From positions 1 to 23,215 of IMG/VR virus record IMGVR_UViG_3300032213_000289: a stretch of 23,215 bases of DNA. One strand, written 5' to 3'. The notes below the pieces were generated by a model. It saw nothing but the letters and a program-made list of their open reading frames with translations. It was not told the DNA's origin and did no database searches. This DNA is from a virus. Below are positions 3,969-21,033 of this stretch, in pieces; within the stretch, counting starts at the first letter, position 1, and each line of letters opens with the position of its first letter. The position numbers were made by a program, and so were the translations under genes.

Positions 3969-5227
3969 CAGCCATTGAAAGCCCGTATGAGCCGCGCCAG
4001 CAGTTCATGCCTCTGCATCTCAGAGATACACGCTGGGGTATTGTCGTCGCGCATCGTCGTGCTGGTAAGACTGTTGCTTGCGTAAACGACCTAATCAAAG
4101 AAGCTGCCTGCTGCATTAAGCCGAACCCACGCTTCGCTTACATCGCGCCGCAACTCAATCAGGCGAAAGACATCGCTTGGTCCTATCTGCTCGAATACAC
4201 TGAATGCTTCGGCCCTGACCGCAAGATTAACGCTTCCGAGTTATGGATAGAGCTTCCCAACAACAACGCCCGCATCCGCATCTATGGCGCTGACAATCCA
4301 GATCGGCTGCGTGGTATCTATCTCGACGGCTGCGTTCTTGATGAGTTTGGGGATATGAACCCGACGGTCTGGTCGCAAGTTATCCGTCCTGCATTGTCTG
4401 ACCGCAAAGGCTGGGCAATCTTCATCGGGACGCCAAAAGGCAAGAACGTATTTTACGACCTATGGCAGAACGCAGAGGACGACGAAGATTGGTCTAGACT
4501 GATGCTCAAGGCATCTGAGACAGGGCTACTCGACGAGAAGGAACTTAACGACGCTCGACGCATGATGAGCGAAGAAGAGTTTGCACAGGAATACGAGTGC
4601 AGCTTTGAGGCTGCTATTCGTGGCGCATATTACGGCAAAGAGTTTTCCGAGATGGATCAGGCTGGCCGCATTACTAACGTGCCTTACGATCCTGCGCTTC
4701 CCGTTCATACTGCGTGGGACTTGGGCATGAGCGACAGCACTGTGATCTGGTTTGTCCAGGCGCATGGTGGTGAGACACGCTGGATCGACTGCCTCAAGGG
4801 TGAGGGTGTTGGCCTCGACTGGTATGTAAAACACTTACAGGAAAAGCCATACGTCTGGGGTAACCATTACCTTCCGCACGATGTTCGTGTAAGAGAGTTA
4901 GGGACGGGCAAGAGTAGATTGGAAGTCCTTAGTGAACTTGGCTTACGCAATATCGAAGTTGCGCCGCGCATGGACATCATGGACGGCATACAGGCGCTTA
5001 GGATGCTCCTGCCGCGCTCATGGTTCGACAAGACCACTTGCAAGCAGGGCATCGAGGCATTGCGAATGTATCGTCGGCACTACGACGAAAAGCGCCAAGA
5101 ATTTCAAACGCACCCGTTCCACGATTGGACATCTCACTACGCCGATGCCGCAAGGTATTTTGCCATAGCGCATAGAGAACAAATGGGTTATACGCCTATC
5201 AGGCGAAATATCCGTGGAATTGTTTAA
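3950..5227 (+). CDS. Terminase large subunit (ATPase and nuclease)
   Basis: The 425-residue DNA-packaging motor pumps the genome into the prohead through the portal and cuts the concatemer. The N-terminal ATPase shows a Walker A variant AHRRAGKT (34-41), Walker B VLDEF with Asp131-Glu132, and a GTP coupling motif at 160-162. The C-terminal RNase H-like nuclease shows WDLG with Asp257 (residues 256-259), His310-Asp311, and HYADAARY with Asp399 (residues 397-404) near the end. It starts at GTG 3950 with AAGGGG upstream and overlaps the small subunit. It lacks an obvious N-terminal extension, so its length is slightly below the usual 450-600. The fold class is clear; which packaging strategy (headful or site-specific ends) it uses cannot be read here. 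Confidence 0.93.
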   Translation: MEDAQLTAIESPYEPRQQFMPLHLRDTRWGIVVAHRRAGKTVACVNDLIKEAACCIKPNPRFAYIAPQLNQAKDIAWSYLLEYTECFGPDRKINASELWIELPNNNARIRIYGADNPDRLRGIYLDGCVLDEFGDMNPTVWSQVIRPALSDRKGWAIFIGTPKGKNVFYDLWQNAEDDEDWSRLMLKASETGLLDEKELNDARRMMSEEEFAQEYECSFEAAIRGAYYGKEFSEMDQAGRITNVPYDPALPVHTAWDLGMSDSTVIWFVQAHGGETRWIDCLKGEGVGLDWYVKHLQEKPYVWGNHYLPHDVRVRELGTGKSRLEVLSELGLRNIEVAPRMDIMDGIQALRMLLPRSWFDKTTCKQGIEALRMYRRHYDEKRQEFQTHPFHDWTSHYADAARYFAIAHREQMGYTPIRRNIRGIV

Positions 5228-5529
5228 TGAAAACTCCAGCTTGGCAGCGCAAAGAGGGCAAGTCCCCATCTGGCGGACTAAATGCCAAGGGCCGTGCGTC
5301 TGCAAAGGCTGAAGGAATGAACTTAAAGGCTCCTGTTAAATCAGGCGATAATCCTCGGAGGGCATCATTTCTAGCGCGTATGGGCAATATGCCGGGGCCG
5401 GAGCGTAATGCGAAAGGCGAACCAACCCGCCTACTATTATCGCTGCAAGCGTGGGGTGCGTCATCTAAAGCAGACGCGAAGTCCAAAGCCAAAGCTATTT
5501 CCGCCCGCAACAAGGGGAAGTCAAAATGA
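5227..5529 (+). CDS. DUF6321-like basic phage protein (100 aa)
   Basis: A 100-residue, strongly basic protein whose start overlaps the terminase stop by one base. It contains WQRKEGKSPSGGLNAKGRAS, LKAPVKSGDNPRRASFLARM and GNMPGPERNAKGEPTRLLLS in series. I associate this pattern with the DUF6321 family found next to terminase or portal genes in many phages, but this comes from memory. The C-terminus is a Lys/Ala/Ser tail (SSKADAKSKAKAISARNKG). Biochemical function is unknown. Its charge and position suggest contact with DNA or packaging into the virion. It overlaps the next gene by 4 bases. Confidence 0.75.
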   Translation: MKTPAWQRKEGKSPSGGLNAKGRASAKAEGMNLKAPVKSGDNPRRASFLARMGNMPGPERNAKGEPTRLLLSLQAWGASSKADAKSKAKAISARNKGKSK

Positions 5530-5678
5530 AGATGGGTTTGTATGCCAACATCGCAGCCAAGAAGGCGCGGATCAAGGCTGGCTCTGGGGAGAAGATGCGT
5601 AAGCCTGGAACAAAGGGCGCTCCAACTGCTGCTGCTTTCAAAGCCGCTGCTAAAACTGCAAAGGTGAAAAAGAAATGA
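5526..5678 (+). CDS. Small Lys/Ala-rich phage protein (50 aa)
   Basis: A 50-residue basic protein starting at ATG 5526, which overlaps the previous stop (ATGA). The sequence runs MKMGLYANIAAKKARIKAGS, then EKMRKPGTKGAPTAAAFKAA and a Lys-rich end. About a quarter of residues are lysine and a similar share alanine. The KMRKPG-KGAPTAAAFK pattern resembles small conserved proteins next to phage portals that I recall only generally. Function is unknown. The next gene again begins on its stop. Confidence 0.65.
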   Translation: MKMGLYANIAAKKARIKAGSGEKMRKPGTKGAPTAAAFKAAAKTAKVKKK

Positions 5679-5851
5679 AGAAACTCAGCGCAGCCGCCAA
5701 GAAGATCGGCAAAGTTATGGGTGAATACAAGCGCGGCACACTTCATGCTGGCGTAAACCCTAAAGGCCCAGCCAAAGCTCCGATGGCAAAGAGCCGTAAG
5801 CAGGCGATTGCTATTGCTCTGTCGGAAGCTGGCAAGTCGAAAAAGAAGTAA
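5675..5851 (+). CDS. DUF6496-like small basic protein (58 aa)
   Basis: A 58-residue basic protein starting at ATG 5675 in ATGA overlap with the previous gene. It contains KKIGKVMGEYKRGTLHAG followed by KSRKQAIAIALSEAGKSKKK. The combination VM-x-E-(Y/F)-x2-G-x-LH-x-G...KQAIAIALSEA is the pattern I associate with DUF6496, a small protein family seen in phages and bacteria with no assigned function. It is the third basic mini-protein in a row between terminase and portal, and an AAGGCGGA site for the portal gene follows it. Confidence 0.72.
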   Translation: MKKLSAAAKKIGKVMGEYKRGTLHAGVNPKGPAKAPMAKSRKQAIAIALSEAGKSKKK

Positions 5852-5860
5852 GGCGGAACT

Positions 5861-8110
5861 ATGGCATATCGGAAAAACGCAAAGCCCACAGATGTGGAGG
5901 TTGAAGACGCTATGGTGCTGGACGACGGCATCGAAGTAAGCGCCGAAATGCCTGAAGGTGAAGAGATGACTGACGAGCAGCTTCAGAGCATCGTCGCTGG
6001 CGAGATTGATGACGCTCAAGCGTATATCGACGACGTTATCTCTCCAGAACGTGCGGAAGCTGGTCAGTATTACAAGGGTGAGCCTTTCGGTAACGAAGAG
6101 GAAGGCCGCTCTAGTGTTGTGTCGATGGATGTCCGCGATACGGTCCAAGCCATCATGCCGTCAATTATGCGGGTGTTCTTTGGCTCTTCTACTGTTGTGG
6201 AATACGCTCCGAACGGCCCAGAAGACGTTGAGAGCGCCGAGCAGGCAACGGATTATGTCAACTACTGTTTGACACGCGACAACAACCTGTTTGCTCATTC
6301 CTATGCCTGGTTCAAAGACGCACTCATTCGCAAGAACGGTTTTGGTAAAGTCTGGTGGGACGAGAGCGAAACCGTAAAGACGTATGAGATCGAAGAGATG
6401 GACGAGAACGCCTACATGGTGCTTATGTCCGATCCAGAGGTTGAACTGCGTGAAGTTGAGGTTGAGTATTCCGAAACCGAGATGCTGACACCTGAAGGCA
6501 TTGCTACAGTCGTTCAGATGCCGTCTTACAGCGCAACAGTCGTTCGTAAGATGAAGGAAGGCCGTCTCAACGTCGCTGCGTTGCCGCCTGAAGAGTTTCT
6601 GATTGACCGTCGCGCCAAGTCTATGGATGACTTCGAGTTTATCGGCCATCGTCGTTATATGACAGTCTCTGAGCTTGTTCAGCTTGGCTATGAGCAGGAC
6701 GAAGTTGAGAACCTGGGCTTTGAAACTCAGGACGACTTTGAAGGCAACATGGAGACGTTTGACCGCAATCCGCAGGCAACCATCCTTGGTGCTGGCCGGA
6801 CTGACGTTGCAAGCCGCAAGGTTATGTATATCGAAGGCTATCTCTACGTTGACATGGACGGAGACGGCATCGCTGAACTTCGCAAGGTCTGCGTTGGTGG
6901 TTCTGCATATAAGATTTTGCACAACGAAGCTGTAGACGACCATCCGTTCTTCAACTTCTGTCCTGATCCAGAGCCTCACACGTTCTTTGGTATGTCGATT
7001 GCCGACGTTGTGATGGACATTCAGCGCATCAAGTCGTCGATTATGCGTAACACGCTCGATAGCTTGGCGCAGTCCATCTATCCGCGCATGGGTGTTGTCG
7101 AAGGTCAGGCGTCCATTGAAGACGTTCTGAACACGGAAGTTGGCGGCATCATCCGCATGAAGTCGCAGGGCGCTGTTCAGCCGTTCATTACGCCGAATGT
7201 GTCTAACGCTGCATTCCCAATGCTTGAGTATATGGATCAGGTGAAGGAAAGCCGCACAGGCATTAACAAGGCATCCGCTGGTCTCGACGCAAACGCACTG
7301 AACGGAGCCACTGCAACGGCTGTAAACGCCACTGTGACGGCAGCCCAGCAGCATATTGAGCTTATCTGCCGTATGTTCGCTGAGACAGGCTTTAAATCGC
7401 TTATGAGCAAGGCTCTTAGCCTCTTGGTCAAGCATCACGACAAGCCTCGCATGGTTCGTCTGCGTAACAAGTGGGTTCCGATTGACCCGCGTGTTTGGGA
7501 TGCGGACATGGATGTTGTGGTAAACATCGCACTCGGCACTGGTTCTGATGAGCAAAAGATGGGCTTCCTGAACCTTATCGCTCAGAAGCAAGAAATGCTG
7601 ATGCAGCAGCTTGGTCCAATGAATAACCCGCTGGTTAACTTTGAGGGCTATTACAACACGCTTGAGCAGATGCTGGCAATCGCTGGCTTCAAGGATGTTT
7701 CACAGTTCTTCCAGAACCCGCAGAACTTCCAGCCGCCACAGCCAACGCCTCCTCCGCCCAGCCCAGAAGCAATCTTGGCACAGGTTCAGGCGCAGAGCAT
7801 TCAGGCTGACATCCAGAAGAAGGCTGCCGAGCTTGAATTGCAGCGTGAAGATATGCTGCTTAAGGATGACCGCGAACGTGATAAGCTGGACGCTGAAGTT
7901 ATGCTCAAGTCCGCTGAGATCGAAGCCAAGTATGGCTCTCAGGTAAACACGGCGAATATCCAAGCCTTGATGCAGCGTGACCGTGAGTTTCTGAAGCAGC
8001 AGGGTGAACTGGAACGCGCAGTGGTTCAGGCTTCACAGGCCGCTCCCGCCGTCCCCATGCAGCCTGAGATGATTATGCCCGTTGAACTTCCGCCAGAAGG
8101 AATGATGTAA
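5861..8110 (+). CDS. Portal protein (P22-like, 749 aa)
   Basis: The portal forms the dodecameric ring at one head vertex through which DNA enters and leaves, and it nucleates shell assembly. After an acidic N-terminus (about 1-60), the core contains VRDTVQAIMPSIMRVFFGSS, WFKDALIRKNGFGKVWWDES, EEFLIDRRAKSMDDFEFIGH and HPFFNFCPDPEPHTFFGMSI. These are typical of large podovirus portals of the P22 type. Residues about 625-640 are Pro/Gln-rich, and about 640-715 form a charged coiled coil, the likely barrel or C-terminal extension. Length (749) matches P22-type portals (about 725). The RBS is AAGGCGGA. Its stop overlaps the next start by one base. Confidence 0.92.
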   Translation: MAYRKNAKPTDVEVEDAMVLDDGIEVSAEMPEGEEMTDEQLQSIVAGEIDDAQAYIDDVISPERAEAGQYYKGEPFGNEEEGRSSVVSMDVRDTVQAIMPSIMRVFFGSSTVVEYAPNGPEDVESAEQATDYVNYCLTRDNNLFAHSYAWFKDALIRKNGFGKVWWDESETVKTYEIEEMDENAYMVLMSDPEVELREVEVEYSETEMLTPEGIATVVQMPSYSATVVRKMKEGRLNVAALPPEEFLIDRRAKSMDDFEFIGHRRYMTVSELVQLGYEQDEVENLGFETQDDFEGNMETFDRNPQATILGAGRTDVASRKVMYIEGYLYVDMDGDGIAELRKVCVGGSAYKILHNEAVDDHPFFNFCPDPEPHTFFGMSIADVVMDIQRIKSSIMRNTLDSLAQSIYPRMGVVEGQASIEDVLNTEVGGIIRMKSQGAVQPFITPNVSNAAFPMLEYMDQVKESRTGINKASAGLDANALNGATATAVNATVTAAQQHIELICRMFAETGFKSLMSKALSLLVKHHDKPRMVRLRNKWVPIDPRVWDADMDVVVNIALGTGSDEQKMGFLNLIAQKQEMLMQQLGPMNNPLVNFEGYYNTLEQMLAIAGFKDVSQFFQNPQNFQPPQPTPPPPSPEAILAQVQAQSIQADIQKKAAELELQREDMLLKDDRERDKLDAEVMLKSAEIEAKYGSQVNTANIQALMQRDREFLKQQGELERAVVQASQAAPAVPMQPEMIMPVELPPEGMM

Positions 8111-10365
8111 TGGCAGTTGATATTGAAGCCCTGAAGGCGCTCGGCCTTAGCGACCAAGAGATCAACCAGCTTGTTGCCATTGAAGCTGGTGGCTTTCCGA
8201 CAAGGGCAGCATCACCGCAGCAAGTTACAAACCGTGTCGCTGGTGCGTATGACTACACTCCTCTTTACGGTGGTGGTGATATTGTTCCCGGCACGACGGC
8301 TGGCATTCTTGCCAATCTCGGCATTGAGAACCCAAATGTTCCCGTGTTTGAATTGCTGGGCAGCGCGAATAAGGGCGGAAACAACGCCAACGAGCGGCTA
8401 GCATTTGCCGCACAGCCAGGGCAGTCATTCCGTTTGGTGAATAACGCAACGGGCCAAGTTGTTGGCGAAGCAAGAACGCCAGAAGAAATTTCTTCGCTTG
8501 TTGCACAGTCAAACGCATTGTCGAAGCAGCTTGGTAAGAAGGCTGATTTGTCATTTGAGCAGTCAACTGGTGGCGCATATTCGCCAATCTTTGAAGACCA
8601 GCCAAACATTTTATTCGATACGCCAATGAAGCTGATTGCTGCGGGTATGCTTGCGTCAATAGGCGGTGGGTTATTGCAGCCAGGTGGACTTAGCGGTGCT
8701 GGTGCTGCTGGTTCAAACGCTGCAATCTCTAACAGTGTGGCTAATGCGGTTAATGCGGCCTACACTGGCGCTCAAGCTGGCGCTGCATCTGCACTTGCCC
8801 CTGTTTATGGCGCTGGTGCTGGTGCTTTTAGTGCGGGTGCTGCTGGCGCTGGTGGGCTTCTTTCTGAAGGTGCGTCACTTGCCCCCGGCGCATTGTCATC
8901 TTTGCCGAGCAATCTTGCGTCTATTAACGCTGCCACGCAGGCTAGTCTTGCTGGCGCTGGTTTAGGTGGAACGACCAGCGGTCTTGTGGCTGACGCATTT
9001 GGAAACCTTGCAGACCAGACGGGCGCGATTGTTGTCACAGGTGGTGGTGGCGGCTCTCTTCTACCCGCAGGGGCTGCTCTTACTGCTGCCGGAACAGCCG
9101 CCGCAACCACCTCTGGCGGAGCGGGCGCTGGTGGCGCTGGCGCTGCTGGTTCCGACGCGGCTATCAATGAAAGCCTGCAAAACACAATAGATACCGCATA
9201 TCAAAATGCCCAAACTGGTGCTGCTTCGAACTTGGCAGGAACATACGGTGCTGGTGCTGGCCCATTTGTCGCTCCCGGTGCAGGGGCTACTGCTGGTGCT
9301 GGCGGTATTCTCGGAACTGGTTTAAACCTAACAGAATTAGCAACACTTGGCAGTCTTGGCGCGTCCGCTTTGGGCAGCGTATTCGGTGGTGGCACTGGTG
9401 GAACTACGGGAGTGCCGTATGTGTCCCCATTTGGCACAACTGGTGGCTTCGGCGCAGGCATGGATTACCGCGCACAGCCTTCTATCGCTGATTACGAGAA
9501 GTATGGATTTGGCCCAGAAGCTACGTTCTTCCGCCCTGAATATAATAGACTTGTATCTACTGCTGCTGGCTTCGCTGGGGCCGCAACTCCTCCTGCAACA
9601 ACTGCAGGGGCGACAGCCACTGGCTCTACAACTCCTGGAGCCACAACTGCTCCCGCTACAACTGCTGGTGCTACAACGACCTCTTCGTCCGCAACTTCTG
9701 GTTCAACAAATCCTGCGGCTACGACAACTGGCGCAACAACAAGTCTAATAGATAGCGCAGCATCAACTGGCGCAACAAATCCAAGTGCATCGACAGCAGG
9801 AGCTAAAATTTCTTTGCCATCCGAAACTAATGTTGGTGGTGGATCACCTGTTTCAGTTGGCGGCAATATGGGACAAGTTCCAATATCTGCGGCTCAAAGA
9901 GAGATAAACACCATCAACAACGCGACTGCTGTAACTAATCCAGCAAATCGCGTTCAAAATCTCGGTCAAAAGGGTGTTTTTGATTACTATAAAACAGCCC
10001 TTGAAACGGCTGGGAATTATGCAAACAGCGGATACATAACGCCAGAAGCGGCTAGTTTGTATACTGCAAAGTTAAATTCAGCTTTGGCGGCTCCGAATGC
10101 AACACTGGAATCAATTAGAGCGGCTGCTCCGCTTCCACAGTATACATATACAGGATCGACGCAGCCGATTACTGACCCAAATAGATATGTTAACGATTTA
10201 TTTAAGCAAATTGGTTCGCAGTTTTCACAAGGACTTCTTAACCAAGAACAGGCGAGAAACATTCAAAGCCAACTTCAGAGAAACCTTGTATCTGGATCAA
10301 CTAGCACTGAGGCGTTGCAAAATATCTACAATACCGAAATGCAAAAGTATAAGCCGTTAATCTGA
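8110..10365 (+). CDS. Large Ala/Gly/Thr-rich repetitive protein between portal and scaffold (751 aa)
   Basis: A 751-residue protein of unknown function. Residues 1-190 are ordered-looking, with PVFELLGSANKGGNNANERL and SFRLVNNATGQVVGEARTPE. Residues about 190-430 are Ala/Gly-rich and carry two related units starting at 201 (GSNAAISNSVANAV...) and 347 (GSDAAINESLQNTI...), each leading into TYGAGAGP-like segments. A short ordered block with DYRAQPSIADYEKYGFGPEA near 455-480 precedes a Thr/Ala/Ser-rich tract at about 492-565 (TTAGATATGSTTPGATTAPA). The C-terminal 170 residues are helical, with Gln-rich repeats. The position suggests a virion component, perhaps an internal or ejected protein, but nothing proves it. 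The Ala/Gly DNA also gives open antisense frames that are shadows. Confidence 0.7.
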   Translation: MAVDIEALKALGLSDQEINQLVAIEAGGFPTRAASPQQVTNRVAGAYDYTPLYGGGDIVPGTTAGILANLGIENPNVPVFELLGSANKGGNNANERLAFAAQPGQSFRLVNNATGQVVGEARTPEEISSLVAQSNALSKQLGKKADLSFEQSTGGAYSPIFEDQPNILFDTPMKLIAAGMLASIGGGLLQPGGLSGAGAAGSNAAISNSVANAVNAAYTGAQAGAASALAPVYGAGAGAFSAGAAGAGGLLSEGASLAPGALSSLPSNLASINAATQASLAGAGLGGTTSGLVADAFGNLADQTGAIVVTGGGGGSLLPAGAALTAAGTAAATTSGGAGAGGAGAAGSDAAINESLQNTIDTAYQNAQTGAASNLAGTYGAGAGPFVAPGAGATAGAGGILGTGLNLTELATLGSLGASALGSVFGGGTGGTTGVPYVSPFGTTGGFGAGMDYRAQPSIADYEKYGFGPEATFFRPEYNRLVSTAAGFAGAATPPATTAGATATGSTTPGATTAPATTAGATTTSSSATSGSTNPAATTTGATTSLIDSAASTGATNPSASTAGAKISLPSETNVGGGSPVSVGGNMGQVPISAAQREINTINNATAVTNPANRVQNLGQKGVFDYYKTALETAGNYANSGYITPEAASLYTAKLNSALAAPNATLESIRAAAPLPQYTYTGSTQPITDPNRYVNDLFKQIGSQFSQGLLNQEQARNIQSQLQRNLVSGSTSTEALQNIYNTEMQKYKPLI

Positions 10366-10601
10366 TGGATAAATTCCAAGTTATTGCTGACGGAAATCAC
10401 GCAAAGCGCCTTCTGGAAGATGAAACTCTTCTGGGGGCGTTTGCTGCTGTTGAGGCTGACATTTACATGGAGTGGCGCACATCTCCAGTTGGTGATGACC
10501 GCGCCCGCCAAGACCTGTTTCACACGCTTAAAGGATTAGAGCGTTTGAAAACCCGCCTACAGGCAATTCTTGATGCAGGAGTGCTTGCAGCAAGGAATTA
10601 A
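10365..10601 (+). CDS. Small conserved-looking phage protein before scaffold (78 aa)
   Basis: A 78-residue helical protein beginning on the previous stop (TGATG). It reads as two or three amphipathic helices: NHAKRLLEDETLLGAFAAVE, ADIYMEWRTSP, and RARQDLFHTLKGLERLKTRL followed by QAILDAGVL. The pattern of a short helical protein containing W-x-T-x-P, placed beside portal and scaffold genes, recurs in many phages as I remember it, but no function is assigned. An assembly or portal-associated role is guessed from position. Confidence 0.65.
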   Translation: MDKFQVIADGNHAKRLLEDETLLGAFAAVEADIYMEWRTSPVGDDRARQDLFHTLKGLERLKTRLQAILDAGVLAARN

Positions 10602-10623: not shown

Positions 10624-11640
10624 ATGACGGAACAAGTCGGCAACCCCAATGCTGGGATCGGCCTCCACGAAGCAACCTTAGCCATCAGTAAAATGCTCGG
10701 CCCTGAAGAGGATAACCAAAGCGAAGCTGAGGCGCTAGACCCGGAAACGGGTGAGGCAGAAGAAGATTACGAAGGCGAAGTTGAAGCCGATGGCGACGAT
10801 GAAGCTGAGTATGATGACGAAGCCGAACTGGACGAAGATGATGGTGAGGAAGAAGCCTCACAGGAACTTCCTGATGATGTCACAGTCAAGGTAAAAGTTG
10901 ACGGTGAAGAAGTGGAAGTCACCCTGGCAGAGCTTCGGAATGGCTATAGTCGGACTTCAGACTACACGCGGAAGGCGCAGGCTCTCGCTGAAGAACGTAA
11001 AGCGTTCCAAGGTGAAGCTGAAACCATCCGTCAAGAACGCGCTCAATACGCTGAACTTCTGCCATTGCTCCAGCAGCAATTGATGCAGCAAGCCAGTGCG
11101 GAGCCTGATTGGGACACTCTTTACAACGAAGACCCCATTGAGGCAGCGCGGTTAGAACGACAGTGGCGCAAATCTCGTGAAGAGCAATCGTATCGCTTCC
11201 AAGCCATTCAGGCTGAACAGCAACGCCTCGCACAAGAGCAAGCCACCGACCAGATGAAAGCCATACAGGCTTTTGTGGAAGCAGAACGGGCCAAGTTACC
11301 TGATGTTATCCCAGAGTGGAAAGATCAGGACACGATGGTCAGGGAAGCTAAAGAGTTGCGCGATTGGGCTGTGTCCCAAGGTTTGACAGAGCAGGAAATC
11401 GAGAGCCTGCGCCAAGCAAACCACGTTGCACTCATCCGCAAGGCCATGTTGTATGACCGGGGTAAGACGAAAGTCCAACAGGCCAAGGACCAGCCAAAGA
11501 GGGCATCCAAGGTTATCCGTCCCGGATCAAATGGCACACAGGTCAATGGTCGTTCAACCGAGGTAAAGAGGGCTTCTCAGCGCCTAGTGCGTAGTGGTCG
11601 TATCACTGATGCGGCTGCACTTTTGGATAAACTCATTTAA
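10624..11640 (+). CDS. Scaffolding protein
   Basis: A 338-residue protein directly before the capsid gene, with an AAAAGGTGAT ribosome-binding site. Residues about 20-88 are extremely acidic, dominated by Glu and Asp. A segment then reads VKVKVDGEEVEVTLAELRNG and YSRTSDYTRKAQALAEER, a motif pair common in phage scaffolds. The remainder is a long Glu/Gln/Arg-rich coiled coil, and the basic C-terminus (KRASQRLVRSGRITDAAALL) is a likely capsid-binding helix. Scaffolds guide capsid protein into proheads and then leave or are cleaved. No protease gene is evident here, so exit without cleavage is possible. Assignment rests on composition, motif and position. Confidence 0.85.
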   Translation: MTEQVGNPNAGIGLHEATLAISKMLGPEEDNQSEAEALDPETGEAEEDYEGEVEADGDDEAEYDDEAELDEDDGEEEASQELPDDVTVKVKVDGEEVEVTLAELRNGYSRTSDYTRKAQALAEERKAFQGEAETIRQERAQYAELLPLLQQQLMQQASAEPDWDTLYNEDPIEAARLERQWRKSREEQSYRFQAIQAEQQRLAQEQATDQMKAIQAFVEAERAKLPDVIPEWKDQDTMVREAKELRDWAVSQGLTEQEIESLRQANHVALIRKAMLYDRGKTKVQQAKDQPKRASKVIRPGSNGTQVNGRSTEVKRASQRLVRSGRITDAAALLDKLI

Positions 11641-11657: not shown

Positions 11658-12620
11658 ATGGCAATTGTTGCAAATACCTTCACCCGTTACTCGGCTATCG
11701 GTATCCGTGAAGACCTGTCGAACGTCATCTATAACATCTCGCCGGAAGAAACTCCGTTCATCTCGAACGTTGGCCGTGAGAACGTTAAGAACACCTACTT
11801 CGAATGGCAGACGGACGCTCTCGCAGCCGCTTCTTCCTCGAACGCCGCGCTTGAAGGTGATGACGTTTCTTCGTTCACTGCTGTTGTTCCGACTGCTCGT
11901 GTTGGTAACTACACGCAGATCAGCACGAAGAACGTCGTGATCTCCGGCACTCTTGAAAGCGTTGATAAGGCTGGCCGTCGCTCGGAACTGACCTATCAGC
12001 TTGCCAAGCTCGGTGCTGAACTGAAGCGTGACATGGAAAGCGCACTGCTTGCCAACCAGGCTTCTGTTGCTGGTAACACGACGACTGCCCGCCGCACGGC
12101 TGGTCTGCCTGCGTGGTTGACCTCCAACACCTCGTTTGGTTCTGGCGGTGCAAACCCGACTGTTGGCTCGACCCCGACTGCTGCCCGCACGGACGGCACT
12201 CAGCGTGCCTTCACGGAAGCCCTGCTGAAGACTGTTGTTCAGAGCGTCTGGACTTCGGGTGGCACTCCCAAGATGCTTATGGTTGGTCCGTTCAACAAGA
12301 CGGCTGCCTCGGCATTCACGGGTATCGCTACGCGCTTCCGTGACGTTCCCGCTGGTCAGCAGGCACAGATCATCGGCGCTGCCGACGTTTATGTGTCCGA
12401 CTTTGGCACGATCAACATCGTTCCGAACCGCTTCCAGCGTGACCGCGATGCGTTCATCGTCGATCCCGATTACGCTTCGTTGGCGATCCTTCGTCCGATC
12501 CAGCAGATGGAACTGGCGAAGACGGGCGACGCTGAAAAGCGCCTGATGCTTGTGGAATATGGCCTGAAGGTCAACACACAGGCAGCTCATGGGATCGTAG
12601 CCGATCTGACGACTTCGTAA
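11658..12620 (+). CDS. Major capsid protein (SU10-type, HK97-like fold)
   Basis: A 320-residue shell protein. Its N-terminal TRYSAIGIREDLSNVIYNIS followed by PEETPFISNVGRENVKNTYF and EWQTDAL is the signature I associate with the SU10 major capsid family (DUF5309). Further features include GDDVSSFTAV, RVGNYTQISTKNVVISGT and the central ELKRDMESALLANQAS. The conserved tail reads RPIQQMELAKTGDAEKRLML. It has strong GC-ending codon use, consistent with high expression, and an AAGGA ribosome-binding site at 11644-11648. A hairpin follows its stop. The antisense frame across it is open for 359 codons, a by-product of codon bias. Confidence 0.95.
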   Translation: MAIVANTFTRYSAIGIREDLSNVIYNISPEETPFISNVGRENVKNTYFEWQTDALAAASSSNAALEGDDVSSFTAVVPTARVGNYTQISTKNVVISGTLESVDKAGRRSELTYQLAKLGAELKRDMESALLANQASVAGNTTTARRTAGLPAWLTSNTSFGSGGANPTVGSTPTAARTDGTQRAFTEALLKTVVQSVWTSGGTPKMLMVGPFNKTAASAFTGIATRFRDVPAGQQAQIIGAADVYVSDFGTINIVPNRFQRDRDAFIVDPDYASLAILRPIQQMELAKTGDAEKRLMLVEYGLKVNTQAAHGIVADLTTS

Positions 12621-13994: not shown

Positions 13995-14870
13995 ATGAGT
14001 TTCTACGGTAGCGGAAATTACGGGCTAGGGGTTTATCCCGCTGGCGTTCCGTCCGGCTACGGTAGTGGCCTCTATGGTCGTGGAAGCTACGGCGAAGACG
14101 CAATTGAGGGCGCAGCGTTAATAACTGCGTCCTCAGACGTATCTGCTACAGCCCAAAGGATTAAGGATGGCTCTGCTGCAATCGCGGCAACATCCGATGT
14201 AACTGCATCTGCTATCCGTTATGCAAATGCTGCATCATTAATCACTGCAACGAGCGATGTAACTGTAGCTGCGGTCCGTATTCTGGTCGGTGCGGTTGCG
14301 ATTGATGCAACATCTGACGTTACGGTTGTCGGCCAGAAGACCATCCCCGGCGCTGCAACGATTGATGCGACCAGCGACCTAACAGCGACTGCAACACGCA
14401 CCACATTTGCAGCAGCAGAGATTAACGCCACATCTACACTTACGGTTAACGCTAACCGTATCGTATTTGCAGCGTCCGAAATAAACGCTGTGAGCGCCGT
14501 TACAGCGTCTGCCGTGCGTTATGCCCAGACAACCATCGACATTGCCTCTACGACGGCTCTGACGGCCTCTGGGGTGATGGTTAACTCGGCTGGTGCGGTA
14601 ATTACTGCAACATCCGACGTAATTGTCTCTGCTGGCATTCGGTTTACGGACAGCGCAGTGGTAAACGCCACTTCAACGGTTATATGTAATGCCGTTAAGA
14701 AGTGGGAGCCGGAGCCAATAACGCCGGAAACATGGACACCACAGGCCGATACGAGCGAAACGTGGACACCTGTTGTCGTAACTTCTGAAACTTGGACAGA
14801 AGTTGCAAATACTAACAAGACATGGACGCCAATTTCTGTTACAGCAGAGACTTGGCAGGAAGCTGCATGA
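13995..14870 (+). CDS. Repetitive fibre-like protein with 20-residue and decapeptide repeats (291 aa)
   Basis: A 291-residue protein with three zones. Residues 1-36 are Gly/Tyr-rich (YGSGNYGLGVYP, YGSGLYGRGSYG). Residues about 39-234 hold ten imperfect repeats of 19-21 residues with consensus near A-x-I-x-A-T-S-D-V-T-x-x-A-x-R-x-x-x-x-A, likely a beta-solenoid or stacked fibre. Residues 245-291 are five decapeptide repeats beginning ETWTP, ETWTP, ETWTE, KTWTP and ETWQE. It sits four bases after a tail-fibre gene and before another. Role as a tail fibre shaft with a Trp-rich tip is inferred. No catalytic motif is seen. Confidence 0.75.
   Translation: MSFYGSGNYGLGVYPAGVPSGYGSGLYGRGSYGEDAIEGAALITASSDVSATAQRIKDGSAAIAATSDVTASAIRYANAASLITATSDVTVAAVRILVGAVAIDATSDVTVVGQKTIPGAATIDATSDLTATATRTTFAAAEINATSTLTVNANRIVFAASEINAVSAVTASAVRYAQTTIDIASTTALTASGVMVNSAGAVITATSDVIVSAGIRFTDSAVVNATSTVICNAVKKWEPEPITPETWTPQADTSETWTPVVVTSETWTEVANTNKTWTPISVTAETWQEAA
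14109..14696 (+). repeat. Ten tandem ~60-bp coding repeats
   Basis: Ten imperfect units of 57-63 bases encode the I-x-A-T-S-D-V-T repeats of the fibre-like protein. The core codons for ATSDVT vary at third positions between copies, so the array is old or selected at protein level rather than newly duplicated. Confidence 0.8.
14727..14867 (+). repeat. Five tandem 30-bp coding repeats (ETWTP decapeptides)
   Basis: Four full units and one partial unit of exactly ten codons, each starting with Glu/Lys-Thr-Trp, close the fibre-like gene. Synonymous codons for the shared Thr and Glu positions differ between units, for example ACA, ACG and ACT. Confidence 0.85.
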
Positions 14871-14878
14871 GGTAAAAG

Positions 14879-15616
14879 ATGGCTGATACAACCACAACAA
14901 ATCTTGGTTTGACGAAACCAGAGGTCGGTGCTTCCGCCGATACTTGGGGAACCAAGCTAAATACAGACCTTGATCTGGTCGATGCGCTGTTCGCTGCCGC
15001 AGGCACAGGGACGAGCGTTGGCGTCAACGTAGGCGCTGGCAAGACGATTGCTGTTGCCGGGACACTGGCTCTGACAGGCACGATGACGGCCAATGGCGCT
15101 ACTCTTAGCCCAACGGAACTAAGCTATCTTGATGGCGTAACGTCAAACATCCAGACGCAGCTTGGCAACGCGATTACCGCTTCCGGCACAGCAACGCTGA
15201 CGAATAAGACGATTGCGTTTTCCAGCAACACGCTGACAGGTGTGGCTCCGCTGGCCTCTCCGACCTTCACTGGCACGGTAACGACTGCAACGACTGACCT
15301 TCTTGGCTCGGTTCGCTCAAACATCACGGCTGTTTCTGCAAGCGCGATTGACTGCTCTGCTGGTAACTTCTTCACCAAGACCGCATCTGGTGCGCTGACT
15401 TGGACGTTTACCAATGTGCCATCATCTCGCGCCTTCTCGCTGCTTCTCGAACTGACTAATGGCGGCACAGGCACACAGACTTGGCCTGCTGCTGTTAAGT
15501 GGCCGGGTGGGACTGCACCGACGCTGACGACATCTGGTGTCGATATTCTCGGCTTCATCACTGACGACGGCGGCACAACATGGCGCGGTGTCGCCCTTAT
15601 GGTGGATAGCAAATAA
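14879..15616 (+). CDS. Tail-fibre-like structural protein (245 aa)
   Basis: A 245-residue protein with a GAGGTAAAAG ribosome-binding site. The N-terminal TTTNLGLTKPEVGASADTWG followed by TKLNTDLDLVDALF is a recurring opening of phage fibre proteins; it probably attaches to the virion. A low-complexity Thr/Gly/Ala region follows (NVGAGKTIAVAGTLALTGTM), with ATLTNKTI and SPTFTGTVTT, both typical of fibre shafts. The C-terminal 90 residues look like a compact beta domain (FFTKTASGALTWTFTNVPSS to DDGGTTWRGVALMVDSK). Host or surface contact is likely but the receptor is unknown. The next gene starts on its stop. Confidence 0.85.
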   Translation: MADTTTTNLGLTKPEVGASADTWGTKLNTDLDLVDALFAAAGTGTSVGVNVGAGKTIAVAGTLALTGTMTANGATLSPTELSYLDGVTSNIQTQLGNAITASGTATLTNKTIAFSSNTLTGVAPLASPTFTGTVTTATTDLLGSVRSNITAVSASAIDCSAGNFFTKTASGALTWTFTNVPSSRAFSLLLELTNGGTGTQTWPAAVKWPGGTAPTLTTSGVDILGFITDDGGTTWRGVALMVDSK

Positions 15617-17592
15617 TGCTTGACCGCATTTTGATTGGTTCTTCCGTAGAGCCATCCGACCCTAATTTTAAGAACGTAACGCTGCTGCTCCACGGCGATG
15701 GAAGCAACGGCGCACAGAACAACACGTTCCTCGACAGCAGCACGAATAACTTCACCATCACCCGTAACGGCAACACGACGCAGGGATCGTTCTCTCCATA
15801 TGGAAGCAACTGGTCGAACTACTTTGATGGAAGCACTGGGTATATTACAGTTGCGCATAATAGCGCGTTAGATGTTTGGGATAGCGGCAGCGGTTCATTT
15901 ACTGTTGAGGCATGGATTTACGCCACTGCATCAATTGGAAATAACATATCAATTGTAGGCAAGGCACCAAATAACGGCTCACCTAGCTGGTCACCGGGCT
16001 GGGCATTTCAGGTCTACAATGGCTACTTGAACGTCAATACTCCAAGCGACACACGCCTGTTTAATAGCAATACAACATCTGTTCCGTTGAACCAATGGGT
16101 TCATTGCGTTCTTGTTAAAAGCGGCAGCACAGTAAGTATTTATCAAAATGGCGTTCGTGTCGGAACGACAACTAACAGCACTGCATATAGCAATACATTA
16201 GATGTCGTATCAATTGGGATTGACCGAAATTTTGCAGGAGGCAAGTTTCCGGGATATATCAGCAATGTAAGAATGGTTAAGGGAACTGCTGTCTACGACC
16301 CTTCTCAGTCGAGCCTAACTGTTCCAACCACGCCACTCACAGCAATCACCAACACATCACTGCTGACTTGCCAGAGCAACCGCTTCCGTGACGCCAGCAC
16401 GAACAACTTCACCATCACCCGCAATGGAGATGTGAGGGTAACAAACTTTGCTCCGTTTGCGCCTTCATCTGCTTACAGCACTAGCACGAATGGTGGCTCT
16501 GCGTATTTTGATGGCAGTGGGGATTATCTAACGTCATCAAGTAGTTCTGCACTAGGATTTGGGACTGGTGACTTCACTATAGAACTATGGTTCTATACTC
16601 CTGCATTTACAGCAATTCAGGCTCTAATTGATTTGCGTAGTGGTGCTGTTGCAGAGCCATTGGCATTAAGCGTGTCATCCTCTGGTCTTGCAAGAAGTTA
16701 TGATTTGACAGTTCGCACTGGAGGACAGTGTAACGCAAATCAATGGAACCATATTGCATGGGTTCGCGCATCAAACGTAAATACGGTCTATGTAAATGGT
16801 GTCGTTGGTCATAGTTGGACTAACGGTGCTGACTATGGATCATCGCGTCCTTCATGGATCGGTATGTCAGCCGGGGGAGGTTCAGAGCCATTTACTGGAT
16901 ATATTTCCAATCTCCGTGTGGTTAAAGGTTCAGCAGTCTATACAGCGGCATTCACACCGCCAACATCTCCCGTTACGGCCATTACAAACACGCAATTGCT
17001 GTTAAACGCCACCAATGCCGCCATCTTCGACAACTCAATGAAGAACGACCTTGAGACTGCCGGAAACGCTCAGATCAGCACAAGCGTTAAGAAGTTTGGC
17101 ACGGGGTCGATGGCGTTTGATGGGAGTGGGGATTGGCTTGGTCTGCCATCAGCCCCACAATTATATTTCGGCACTAGTGATTTCACTGCTGAGGCTTGGA
17201 TTTATCCAACTGGCGGTTCAGGAAACCGCGCCGTTTTCACTGGCAGTGTAACTAACGGCTTTGCATTTTATATAAATAGCTCAGGTAAAATTGCAGTTGC
17301 AAAGTCCAGCGTTGCCGAAATCATCGCTAGCACAACAACCATTTCTACGTCTGGATTTACACATGTAGCTGCCACGCGCAGTGGTAATACTTTCCGTATT
17401 TTTGTAAACGGGACTCTTGAGGCGACAGTTACATCGTCTCAGGATTTTACGGCATTCAATGATAACAGGATAGGATACGAAAATGGTTCTTCATACTATG
17501 TTGGATACATCGACGAACTTCGTATCACATCTGGCGTAGCCCGCTATACCGCAACCTTTACGGCCCCAACGGCCCCATTCCCGAATAAGTAA
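15616..17592 (+). CDS. Triple LamG/concanavalin-like adhesin (658 aa)
   Basis: A 658-residue protein with three concanavalin A-like (LamG-type) domains at about 20-255, 257-470 and 472-650. Each has an FDGS strand (YFDGSTGYIT, YFDGSGDYLT, AFDGSGDWLG), a core strand (FTVEAWIY, FTIELWFY, FTAEAWIY), and a closing GYIS/GYID motif (GYISNVRMVKGTAVYD, GYISNLRVVKGSAVYT, GYIDELRITSGVARYT). Domains 1 and 2 are preceded by the same STNNFTITRNG linker. LamG folds usually bind carbohydrate or protein, so a receptor-binding role on the tail is likely. Placement between fibre and fibre-chaperone genes supports that. Base composition within the domains is more AT-rich than in the linkers. Confidence 0.85.
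   Translation: MLDRILIGSSVEPSDPNFKNVTLLLHGDGSNGAQNNTFLDSSTNNFTITRNGNTTQGSFSPYGSNWSNYFDGSTGYITVAHNSALDVWDSGSGSFTVEAWIYATASIGNNISIVGKAPNNGSPSWSPGWAFQVYNGYLNVNTPSDTRLFNSNTTSVPLNQWVHCVLVKSGSTVSIYQNGVRVGTTTNSTAYSNTLDVVSIGIDRNFAGGKFPGYISNVRMVKGTAVYDPSQSSLTVPTTPLTAITNTSLLTCQSNRFRDASTNNFTITRNGDVRVTNFAPFAPSSAYSTSTNGGSAYFDGSGDYLTSSSSSALGFGTGDFTIELWFYTPAFTAIQALIDLRSGAVAEPLALSVSSSGLARSYDLTVRTGGQCNANQWNHIAWVRASNVNTVYVNGVVGHSWTNGADYGSSRPSWIGMSAGGGSEPFTGYISNLRVVKGSAVYTAAFTPPTSPVTAITNTQLLLNATNAAIFDNSMKNDLETAGNAQISTSVKKFGTGSMAFDGSGDWLGLPSAPQLYFGTSDFTAEAWIYPTGGSGNRAVFTGSVTNGFAFYINSSGKIAVAKSSVAEIIASTTTISTSGFTHVAATRSGNTFRIFVNGTLEATVTSSQDFTAFNDNRIGYENGSSYYVGYIDELRITSGVARYTATFTAPTAPFPNK
15739..15770 (+). repeat. 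Direct repeat, copy 1, in the LamG gene
   Basis: This 32-base segment matches 16396-16427 with only three mismatches. Both encode the STNNFTITRNG linker in front of LamG domains 1 and 2, so it may mark the junction of a duplicated or exchangeable module. Confidence 0.8.
16396..16427 (+). repeat. Direct repeat, copy 2, in the LamG gene
   Basis: Second copy of the 32-base segment at 15739-15770. It lies at the boundary between LamG domains 1 and 2; no third copy precedes domain 3. Confidence 0.8.
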
Positions 17593-19517: not shown

Positions 19518-19877
19518 ATGCTCCCGTTTAATCCGATCATGGGCTATGTGGCGGCAGGCGCTCTTGTTATTGGCCTCGCAGCCGGATGGAAAGTCAAGGA
19601 TTGGCAATGTGATGCCGCGTATTCCAAGGCTCTGGAAAAAGCTGAAAAGCAACGCCAGCAGATGCAAGGAAAGATAGATGAGGTTTCTTCGCTTTACCAA
19701 GAACAGCAAGATAAAGCCGATGTGGTGGTCGCCGGAGAGCGAGAAACAATCCGCGAGATATATAAGACTTTTCCTGCTGTCCCTGCTGATTGCATTCCTG
19801 ATCATCGTGTTGTCGGGCTGCTCGAAGGCGGTGTCAATCGTGCCAATGCCGCTGCCTCCAGCGAACCTAGCAAGTAA
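19518..19877 (+). CDS. i-spanin (Rz-like)
   Basis: A 119-residue inner-membrane spanin subunit. An N-terminal anchor covers about residues 7-24 (IMGYVAAGALVIGLAAGW). A periplasmic coiled coil follows (YSKALEKAEKQRQQMQGKID, then QEQQDKADVVVAGERETIRE). The end resembles other phage Rz proteins (FPAVPADCIPDHRVVGLLEG). Together with the o-spanin it links and fuses inner and outer membranes after the endolysin has degraded peptidoglycan. This implies a Gram-negative host. The upstream AAGGG is about ten bases from ATG 19518. The o-spanin gene overlaps it by 200 bases in another frame. Confidence 0.85.
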   Translation: MLPFNPIMGYVAAGALVIGLAAGWKVKDWQCDAAYSKALEKAEKQRQQMQGKIDEVSSLYQEQQDKADVVVAGERETIREIYKTFPAVPADCIPDHRVVGLLEGGVNRANAAASSEPSK

Positions 19878-20025
19878 CTGCCCACCTCTTCCAAATCCGC
19901 CTTCCACACTCACCGATCCTGAACGCGCTATCTGGGAAGTAGAAATAATTGCCAAGTATGGTGATTGTGCGCTAAGGCACAAAATGACTGTTGATGCTTG
20001 GACGCAGGCCGCTAAGTCAAAGTGA
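19678..20025 (+). CDS. o-spanin lipoprotein (Rz1-like), overlapping the i-spanin gene
   Basis: A 115-residue lipoprotein read in the +1 frame relative to the i-spanin. ATG 19678 has AAGGA at 19666-19670, seven bases ahead; ATG 19720 would shorten the N-terminus to a more usual length. The signal region is LFLLSLLIAFLIIVLSGC with lipobox Cys48. The mature part is Pro-rich (VPMPLPPANLASNCPPLPNP) as in Rz1, then a short conserved-looking tail. It should be attached to the outer membrane and pair with the i-spanin. It starts inside and ends 148 bases past its partner, the overlapping Rz/Rz1 arrangement. Confidence 0.85.
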   Translation: MRFLRFTKNSKIKPMWWSPESEKQSARYIRLFLLSLLIAFLIIVLSGCSKAVSIVPMPLPPANLASNCPPLPNPPSTLTDPERAIWEVEIIAKYGDCALRHKMTVDAWTQAAKSK

Positions 20026-20037
20026 GGGAGATGGGCG

Positions 20038-21033
20038 ATGCCTAACATCATAGTTAGCGACGAAGAATTTGTTAAAATGTGGCAAGAGGCAGACGGCAGC
20101 CCGCGCCGAATGCACGAAATGACAGGTATAACCGAGCGGAATATCTACGCCCGTCGTCACGCTCTTGCTGGCCGTGGCATTATCCTAAAAAGCATTCCAC
20201 GAGGAACCGCTAAAGGCAATTGGTCAAAAGATAATGTTGGCCGTTCGTATAAGGGCCAAAACAATCTGAGCGTCCACAATGGAAACGTTATTGTGTTCTC
20301 AGATGCCCACTGGTGGCCGGATCACCAGCGCACGGTTGCAAATGAAGCCCTTCATATTCTCATTAAAGACCTAAAGCCAGTTGCTGTCGTTGCTAATGGT
20401 GACTTGTTTGATGGCGCTAGGGTGTCACGCCACGCACCAATTGGCTGGGCTGATTTACCATCTGTTCGCGGTGAGCTTGAGATTTGCCAAGAACGCATGG
20501 CTGACATTGAGATGATTATCCCCAAAGGCTGTCAGACGTTCTGGAATGTCGGGAACCATGATGCCCGCTTTGACCGTGCGCTGATTACGAACGCTCCAGA
20601 ATATGAAGGCGTTGTCGAGCGTTTAGAAGATAAGTTTGACCGCTGGGATTTTGCTTGGTCGCTGACAGTCAACGATGATGTTATGATTAAGCATCGTTAT
20701 CACAACGGCATCCACGCTGCGTATAACAACGCTCTCAAGTCTGGGAAGACAATCGTTACTGGACACCTTCATCGCCTCGCTGTGACGCCCTGGGCGGACT
20801 ATAATGGCCGTCGCTGGGGTGTGGATACTGGAACGCTTGCCAATCCTCACGGACCGCAGTTTGATTACGCTGAGAATAATCCTTCTCCTCACACATCGGG
20901 ATTTGCAGTCCTAACTTTCAAGGATGGGATGCTGCTTCCACCAGAGCTTTGCGAGGTGATTGATGACAAGGCGTATTTTCGGGGCCAATGTGTATACGAC
21001 GGAGCAAGTGAAGATGACCATCTCAGCGATTGA
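20038..21033 (+). CDS. Calcineurin-like metallophosphoesterase (331 aa)
   Basis: A 331-residue predicted metal-dependent phosphoesterase. The motifs of the superfamily are present in order: SDAH (88-91), NGDLFDG (120-126, Asp122), GNHDAR (172-177), a KHRYHNG His (about 219-222), and GHLH (242-245). Residues 1-45 resemble a small helix-turn-helix (RRMHEMTGITERNIYARRHA), a layout seen in phage DNA-acting phosphoesterases. Substrate is not clear: DNA ends, nucleotides or another phosphate ester are all possible. It lies between the lysis and tail genes, with a GAGGGAGATG signal. The next gene starts within its 3' end. Confidence 0.88.
   Translation: MPNIIVSDEEFVKMWQEADGSPRRMHEMTGITERNIYARRHALAGRGIILKSIPRGTAKGNWSKDNVGRSYKGQNNLSVHNGNVIVFSDAHWWPDHQRTVANEALHILIKDLKPVAVVANGDLFDGARVSRHAPIGWADLPSVRGELEICQERMADIEMIIPKGCQTFWNVGNHDARFDRALITNAPEYEGVVERLEDKFDRWDFAWSLTVNDDVMIKHRYHNGIHAAYNNALKSGKTIVTGHLHRLAVTPWADYNGRRWGVDTGTLANPHGPQFDYAENNPSPHTSGFAVLTFKDGMLLPPELCEVIDDKAYFRGQCVYDGASEDDHLSD

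Follow-up and report, generated by a model that had tools for sequence, protein, structure and literature searches.

How podovirus DNA passes the periplasm, and what supplies the energy for this step, is still an open question. To our knowledge, TonB powers phage entry only through receptors (T1, phi80). Strand addition is the way in which the TonB boxes of transporters and colicins bind TonB at its C-terminal domain, this box-binding domain is periplasmic, and colicins carry TonB boxes of their own. In the open papers, of which coverage was incomplete, TonB boxes are treated for receptors and bacteriocins and for no phage particle protein. Among phage proteins, gp20-24 of the podovirus SU10 were defined as ejection proteins by mass spectrometry, being present in virions and lost on genome release (PMC9509320). 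A further point of comparison is gp066 of the Caulobacter phages RW, RLK, KcrB and GB2A, which is annotated as hypothetical and, in GB2A, as a tape measure. In RW, the gp066 gene is preceded by that of a phrog_3287 protein and one small ORF, and stands directly upstream of ej1 (phrog_4287, 'DNA ejection protein'), ej2 and ej3, with a lytic transglycosylase, away from the head genes.

The DNA analyzed here is an IMG/VR fragment of 23,215 bases (the window) with a head module of the SU10/LUZ24 type, consisting of terminase, SU10_portal, scaffold (phrog_3927), SU10_MCP and SU10_adaptor. An ORF next to the portal gene, whose product we call X, had been recognized from the letters alone (the sequence-only reading) and is real (Table 1); a second contig of 6,411 bp (L007) encodes X at 100% identity and X is therefore not a private assembly error. 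The first base of the gene is also the final base of the portal stop codon, and its end coincides with the first base of a 78-residue ORF. Thus, the placement of X between portal and scaffold was correct on the portal side, but the small ORF separates it from the scaffold gene.

Table 1. Features of protein X and its neighbors in the window.
Feature	Position	Strand	Evidence
SU10-type portal protein (PF23899)	5861..8110	+	E 3.6e-211
Protein X, 751 aa	8110..10365	+	ORF; identical copy in L007; 82 distinct relatives
N-terminal helical pair, residues 1-27	8110..8190	+	AF2 helices 5-10, 15-25
N-domain, residues 61-165, beta-beta-alpha-beta-beta core	8290..8604	+	AF2 pLDDT about 90 over 101-160
Glycine-rich hydrophobic segment, residues 166-200	8605..8709	+	Composition and hydropathy
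Internal repeat 1, residues 196-247	8695..8850	+	Protein and DNA alignment
GAIVVTG, residues 305-311, single degenerate TonB-box-like copy	9022..9042	+	Word counts; family-wide enrichment
Internal repeat 2, residues 342-393	9133..9288	+	Protein and DNA alignment
C-module, residues 400-478 (ILGTGL...PYVSPFG...DYEKYGFGPEATFFRPEY)	9307..9543	+	In 76/81 relatives; invariant columns in A1, A3
Thr/Ala-rich tract, residues 492-565	9583..9804	+	Predicted disordered
C-terminal helical domain, residues 594-746	9889..10347	+	AF2; blast
C-terminal PLI	10354..10362	+	Ends 65/71 complete relatives
Small ORF, 78 aa (phrog_8161)	10365..10601	+	Directly after portal in phages without X
Scaffolding protein (phrog_3927)	10624..11640	+	PHROG match
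SU10-type major capsid protein (PF17236)	11658..12620	+	Pfam match

Elsewhere in the window, a fibre-region protein (13995-14870) has several short repeats of the type 'xAxIxATSDVTVxAxR', and a 658-residue tail protein (15616-17592) has three Laminin_G_3 (concanavalin-like) domains; fibre-region genes also vary among relatives. Two Rz/Rz1-like spanin genes (119 and 115 aa; 19518-20025) overlap out of frame and are followed by a calcineurin-like phosphoesterase gene (20038-21033) that has a phrog_3287 structural gene on its other side and is also retained in the genome of a relative (L009).

X had been said to have no recognizable family, and indeed no match was found in Pfam, PHROGs, NCBIfam, PADLOC or PDB, or by tblastn against annotated phages and plasmids. 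Ejection families gave 0 PHROG or Pfam matches for the window protein and do not appear among the weak matches of its family members. Tape-measure models did not match the window protein, and 2 of 55 family members matched one such model (phrog_167) weakly (best E 0.0017). No Pfam model of a TonB-dependent transporter plug or barrel matched the window protein or any of 55 members, no plug match was found in a relative's genome, and X, unlike the transporters and colicins that carry TonB boxes, showed no receptor-binding or toxin domain. Fold searches against PDB returned nothing at E≤0.001, where a separate model of the N-domain was poor (pLDDT 55) and its search means little, and a BFVD fold search gave four significant matches, one of them a 580-residue entry, the length of gp066.

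An AF2 model built on 55 homologues predicted a confident N-domain, disorder at about residues 181-590 and a confident helical domain at the C-terminus, where pLDDT was mostly 83-97 and where helices had been expected. X had been described as low-complexity, but residues 61-165 form a predicted domain, and X is therefore not wholly low-complexity. Likewise, the idea of an elastic linker fits the middle region (pLDDT below 50) and not the other parts. The two related internal units of the sequence-only reading are real, since the 52-residue repeats align without gaps at a score of 155 (best of 1,000 shuffles, 70), and they are also detectable in the DNA, at 8695 and 9133; their starts, given as 201 and 347, had been set about 5 residues too late. 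A comparison of repeat number among relatives, which had been proposed as a check, showed one copy of the window repeat in L010 and a match to the second copy in L160, with no match in other relatives. The Thr-rich tract was also borne out (32% Thr, 27% Ala) and has no match among relatives. The C-terminal helical domain, with similar sequence in only 4 relatives (L024, L025, L028, L160), is not supported as an internal duplication (score 32, reached by 44 of 1,000 shuffles), and the N-terminal helical pair has blast matches in 4 of 81 relatives, all near relatives of the window phage. By hydropathy, X of the window has no segment with KD>1.5 and so no strong membrane-like segment; 76 of 82 relatives have a segment above this value, and most relatives have a stronger, membrane-like one at the position of residues 166-200. 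No signal peptide was seen by eye, and a periplasmic role of X would therefore need ejection.

Relatives were gathered by a portal scan and by a C-module scan. Among readable loci of the portal scan, all those with portals at least 59% identical to that of the window had one X-type gene after the portal gene, and those with portals at most 53% identical had no X and a small ORF directly after the portal gene. The C-module scan added 73 loci with the X gene in the same place in all, and every relative of X that was checked occupies this locus. Altogether we found 82 distinct relatives, 71 of them complete (360-963 aa). In the annotated relatives phiM5, PaP3, HTVC106P and the Manatee Spring phages, the gap between portal and scaffold consists of one or two short ORFs only. 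The N-domain was absent from 14 no-insert genomes or contigs, and no copy of X was found elsewhere in them. Since phiM5, PaP3 and other relatives lack X, it is dispensable for SU10-type virions. A locus from an Alphaproteobacteria MAG (L179; portal 34%) has an unrelated-looking 524-residue Gly-rich protein (5179-6753) at the same junction of portal and small ORF, so this site may accept different inserts. A genome scan for hosts gave 11 capsid relatives in bacterial genomes, none of them a trustworthy host; the best (L181; CP070811.1, Anaerolineales bin12) is a fragment of the clade among N runs of a 'complete' MAG chromosome and probably reflects mis-binning or the joining of contigs, not integration as a prophage.

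At the level of sequence, X is a hypervariable mosaic of interchangeable parts. Alternative N-terminal ends and the N-domain are followed by the glycine-rich, hydrophobic stretch, then by a middle region that varies, and lastly by the C-module (consensus 'YVSPFG...DYE(K/R)YGFGPEA.FF'), after which the protein ends in 'PLI'. Among the 1,109 pairs of loci whose portals share 90% identity or more, the median identity of the portals was 94% and that of the scaffolds 92%, compared with 39% for X; in one pair (L127 and L141) the three values were 99.4%, 99.5% and 35%. From these differences we conclude that X is exchanged or rewritten among near-identical neighbors. In a single 38.6-kb contig (IMGVR_UViG_3300020042_005023), the two ends (L104 and L113) have portals that are 98% identical but differ in the adjoining X gene (472 and 482 aa; 41% identity), as if the assembly had crossed between strains of one population. 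In L118, L135, L141, L108 and L136, the N-terminal 50-300 residues add a long Ala/Gln/Arg helix and a Pro-rich stretch; these recall the periplasmic regions of TolA and TonB, a low-complexity likeness noted by eye only.

A relative of X (L038) matched gp066 of the four Caulobacter phages weakly (E 0.01), and hhalign of the X family against RW gp066 gave a probability of 98.9 and E 2e-17 over 130 columns, which supports homology over the N-domain and the glycine-rich hydrophobic stretch; a scan of viral contigs with RW gp066 gave no match. Besides these two parts, gp066 resembles X in its linker, which is rich in Pro and in which DEIVVTP-like strands recur, and in its end module (DRDWTQYGMGPEASFF). 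Unlike X, which in the window clade lies outside the cassette, between portal and scaffold, gp066 precedes the ejection cassette, its end resembles tape-measure proteins, and its motif has P in place of A/G (DEIVVTP). Two relatives of the window phage (the genomes of L017 and L009) keep a full ejection cassette downstream, which rules out X as the relocated ejection gene itself and makes it an additional member, relocated or gained.

Because RW gp066 directly precedes the ejection cassette, we favor an ejected internal head protein, and the internal head protein or ejected channel component of the sequence-only reading gains from the phrog_4287 and transglycosylase genes beside gp066. Our main reading, to which we give a probability of about 0.55, takes X to be an ejection-type protein carried inside the virion. 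With SU10 gp20-24, the phages that carry X share the virion type (portal, adaptor and capsid families), and the RW homologue shares the link to an ejection cassette; X differs in matching no ejection-protein family and in that its relatives also keep the canonical cassette. We file X as a protein that would work like an ejection protein, not as a proven member. Late expression of the portal operon would yield X, which would be packaged in the head and would leave it with the DNA to enter the cell envelope. The N-domain and C-module may attach X to other proteins of the virion. A membrane channel may be entered or lined by the glycine-rich hydrophobic segment, with the long disordered middle perhaps spanning the periplasm. 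The exchange of X between near-identical flanks (L127 and L141) is as expected for a host-facing part. Points against this reading are the full cassette that relatives keep elsewhere, the dispensability of X for SU10-type virions and the want of a strong membrane-like segment in the window protein.

A short peptide in the middle region bears on what X might face. In an unbiased gapped-word count of this region, D-I-x-V and I-V-V-T words were the most enriched after TQ/QA repeats. We counted 70 copies of the pattern [DE][ITL][IVLT]VT[AG], spread over 51 of the 82 proteins, where shuffling predicts 0.27, and 28 copies in a non-redundant set of 30 representatives, where local shuffling predicts 0.14. 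These expectations are not strict tests, since the expression was written after the sequences had been seen. The stronger arguments for the motif are the control ORFs and the codon diversity. The other ORFs of these loci, examined over 286,803 residues, contain no copy, and the 70 copies comprise 55 different DNA sequences encoding 13 peptides, which indicates selection at the protein level and rules out a DNA-level repeat or recombination site as their source. With a slightly wider pattern, all copies (95 of 95) lie N-terminal to the C-module, in a region predicted to be disordered in the window protein. Most relatives have 1-3 copies per protein, and 25 to 31 of the 82 have no clear one. The window protein has the single copy GAIVVTG, without the acidic residue; because shuffling the protein 5,000 times yields a relaxed form of it in 68 cases, a likeness to TonB boxes could not be argued from the window by itself.

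The likeness lies in the family as a whole. Like the TonB boxes of FhuA, FepA, BtuB and the group-B colicins, the motif is a short acidic-hydrophobic-V-T-A/G peptide in an unstructured region, and a heptapeptide of this form in a flexible segment was found in the family, the window copy being degenerate. The X family differs in having 1-3 copies inside a long linker, where transporters and colicins have one near the N-terminus. DTITVTA in one relative (L008) and DTIVVTA in another (L135) match, over all 7 residues, peptides read from the E. coli K-12 genome in FhuA and FepA, respectively, which are the established TonB boxes of these proteins. Two Paraburkholderia transporters have DTVVVTGTR and DRVVVTGTR, compared with DEIVVTGTRP in the phages. 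On this likeness we propose, tentatively and at less than even odds, that proteins of the X family bind TonB, and for the window protein we hold this to be less probable than for the family. The peptides, once in the periplasm, would bind the TonB C-terminal domain by strand addition, and this binding might anchor or energize entry. The degenerate copy in the window, the relatives with no clear copy and the proline of the RW motif speak against it. A wider idea is that injected phage proteins carry mimic TonB boxes in arrays, by which the particle itself and not its receptor engages host TonB during entry, and that rapid shuffling of these arrays between phages matches them to different hosts; this is a conjecture that we consider doubtful.

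The same peptides may have another explanation within the particle, in which X is a virion protein whose [DE]IVVT[AG] peptides pair as beta-strands with a phage partner, such as the portal barrel, the ejection proteins or X itself; the resemblance to TonB boxes would then reflect convergence toward a sequence suited to strand pairing. The RW copies (DEIVVTP, DPVVVNP, SPVTVSP, DELVIKP) would agree with this, since they keep the strand and lose A/G, as would the degenerate copy in the window and the position of the X gene beside the portal gene. However, several relatives equal host TonB boxes over 7 residues, and X changes against a background of nearly constant portal and scaffold proteins, so that a fixed phage partner would not need changing numbers of motifs. 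We regard this reading as unlikely.

That the gene lies between those of portal and scaffold and that the starts are coupled would also suit a head-assembly or minor capsid or decoration protein, for example a portal-scaffold co-factor, whose disordered tail has little specific meaning. This is improbable because close relatives with SU10-type capsids assemble without X, because the length of X differs by a factor of two to three among loci, most of which share 91-95% identity in the capsid protein, and because the RW homologue lies in the ejection cassette, distant from head genes. That X is a non-virion late protein, acting in superinfection exclusion or host interference by titrating TonB or another factor, is very improbable, because, although its hypervariability and cassette exchange would suit this role and TonB-box-like peptides could block TonB, no export signal was recognized by eye while the box-binding domain is periplasmic, PADLOC gave no match, and the RW homologue is in an ejection cassette.

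Whatever the function of X, its locus shows cleanly how a gene of a virion operon can be hypervariable and swapped within a head module that is otherwise nearly constant. If X is an ejected protein that binds TonB, a phage particle protein with its own TonB boxes would join phage entry and colicin strategies.
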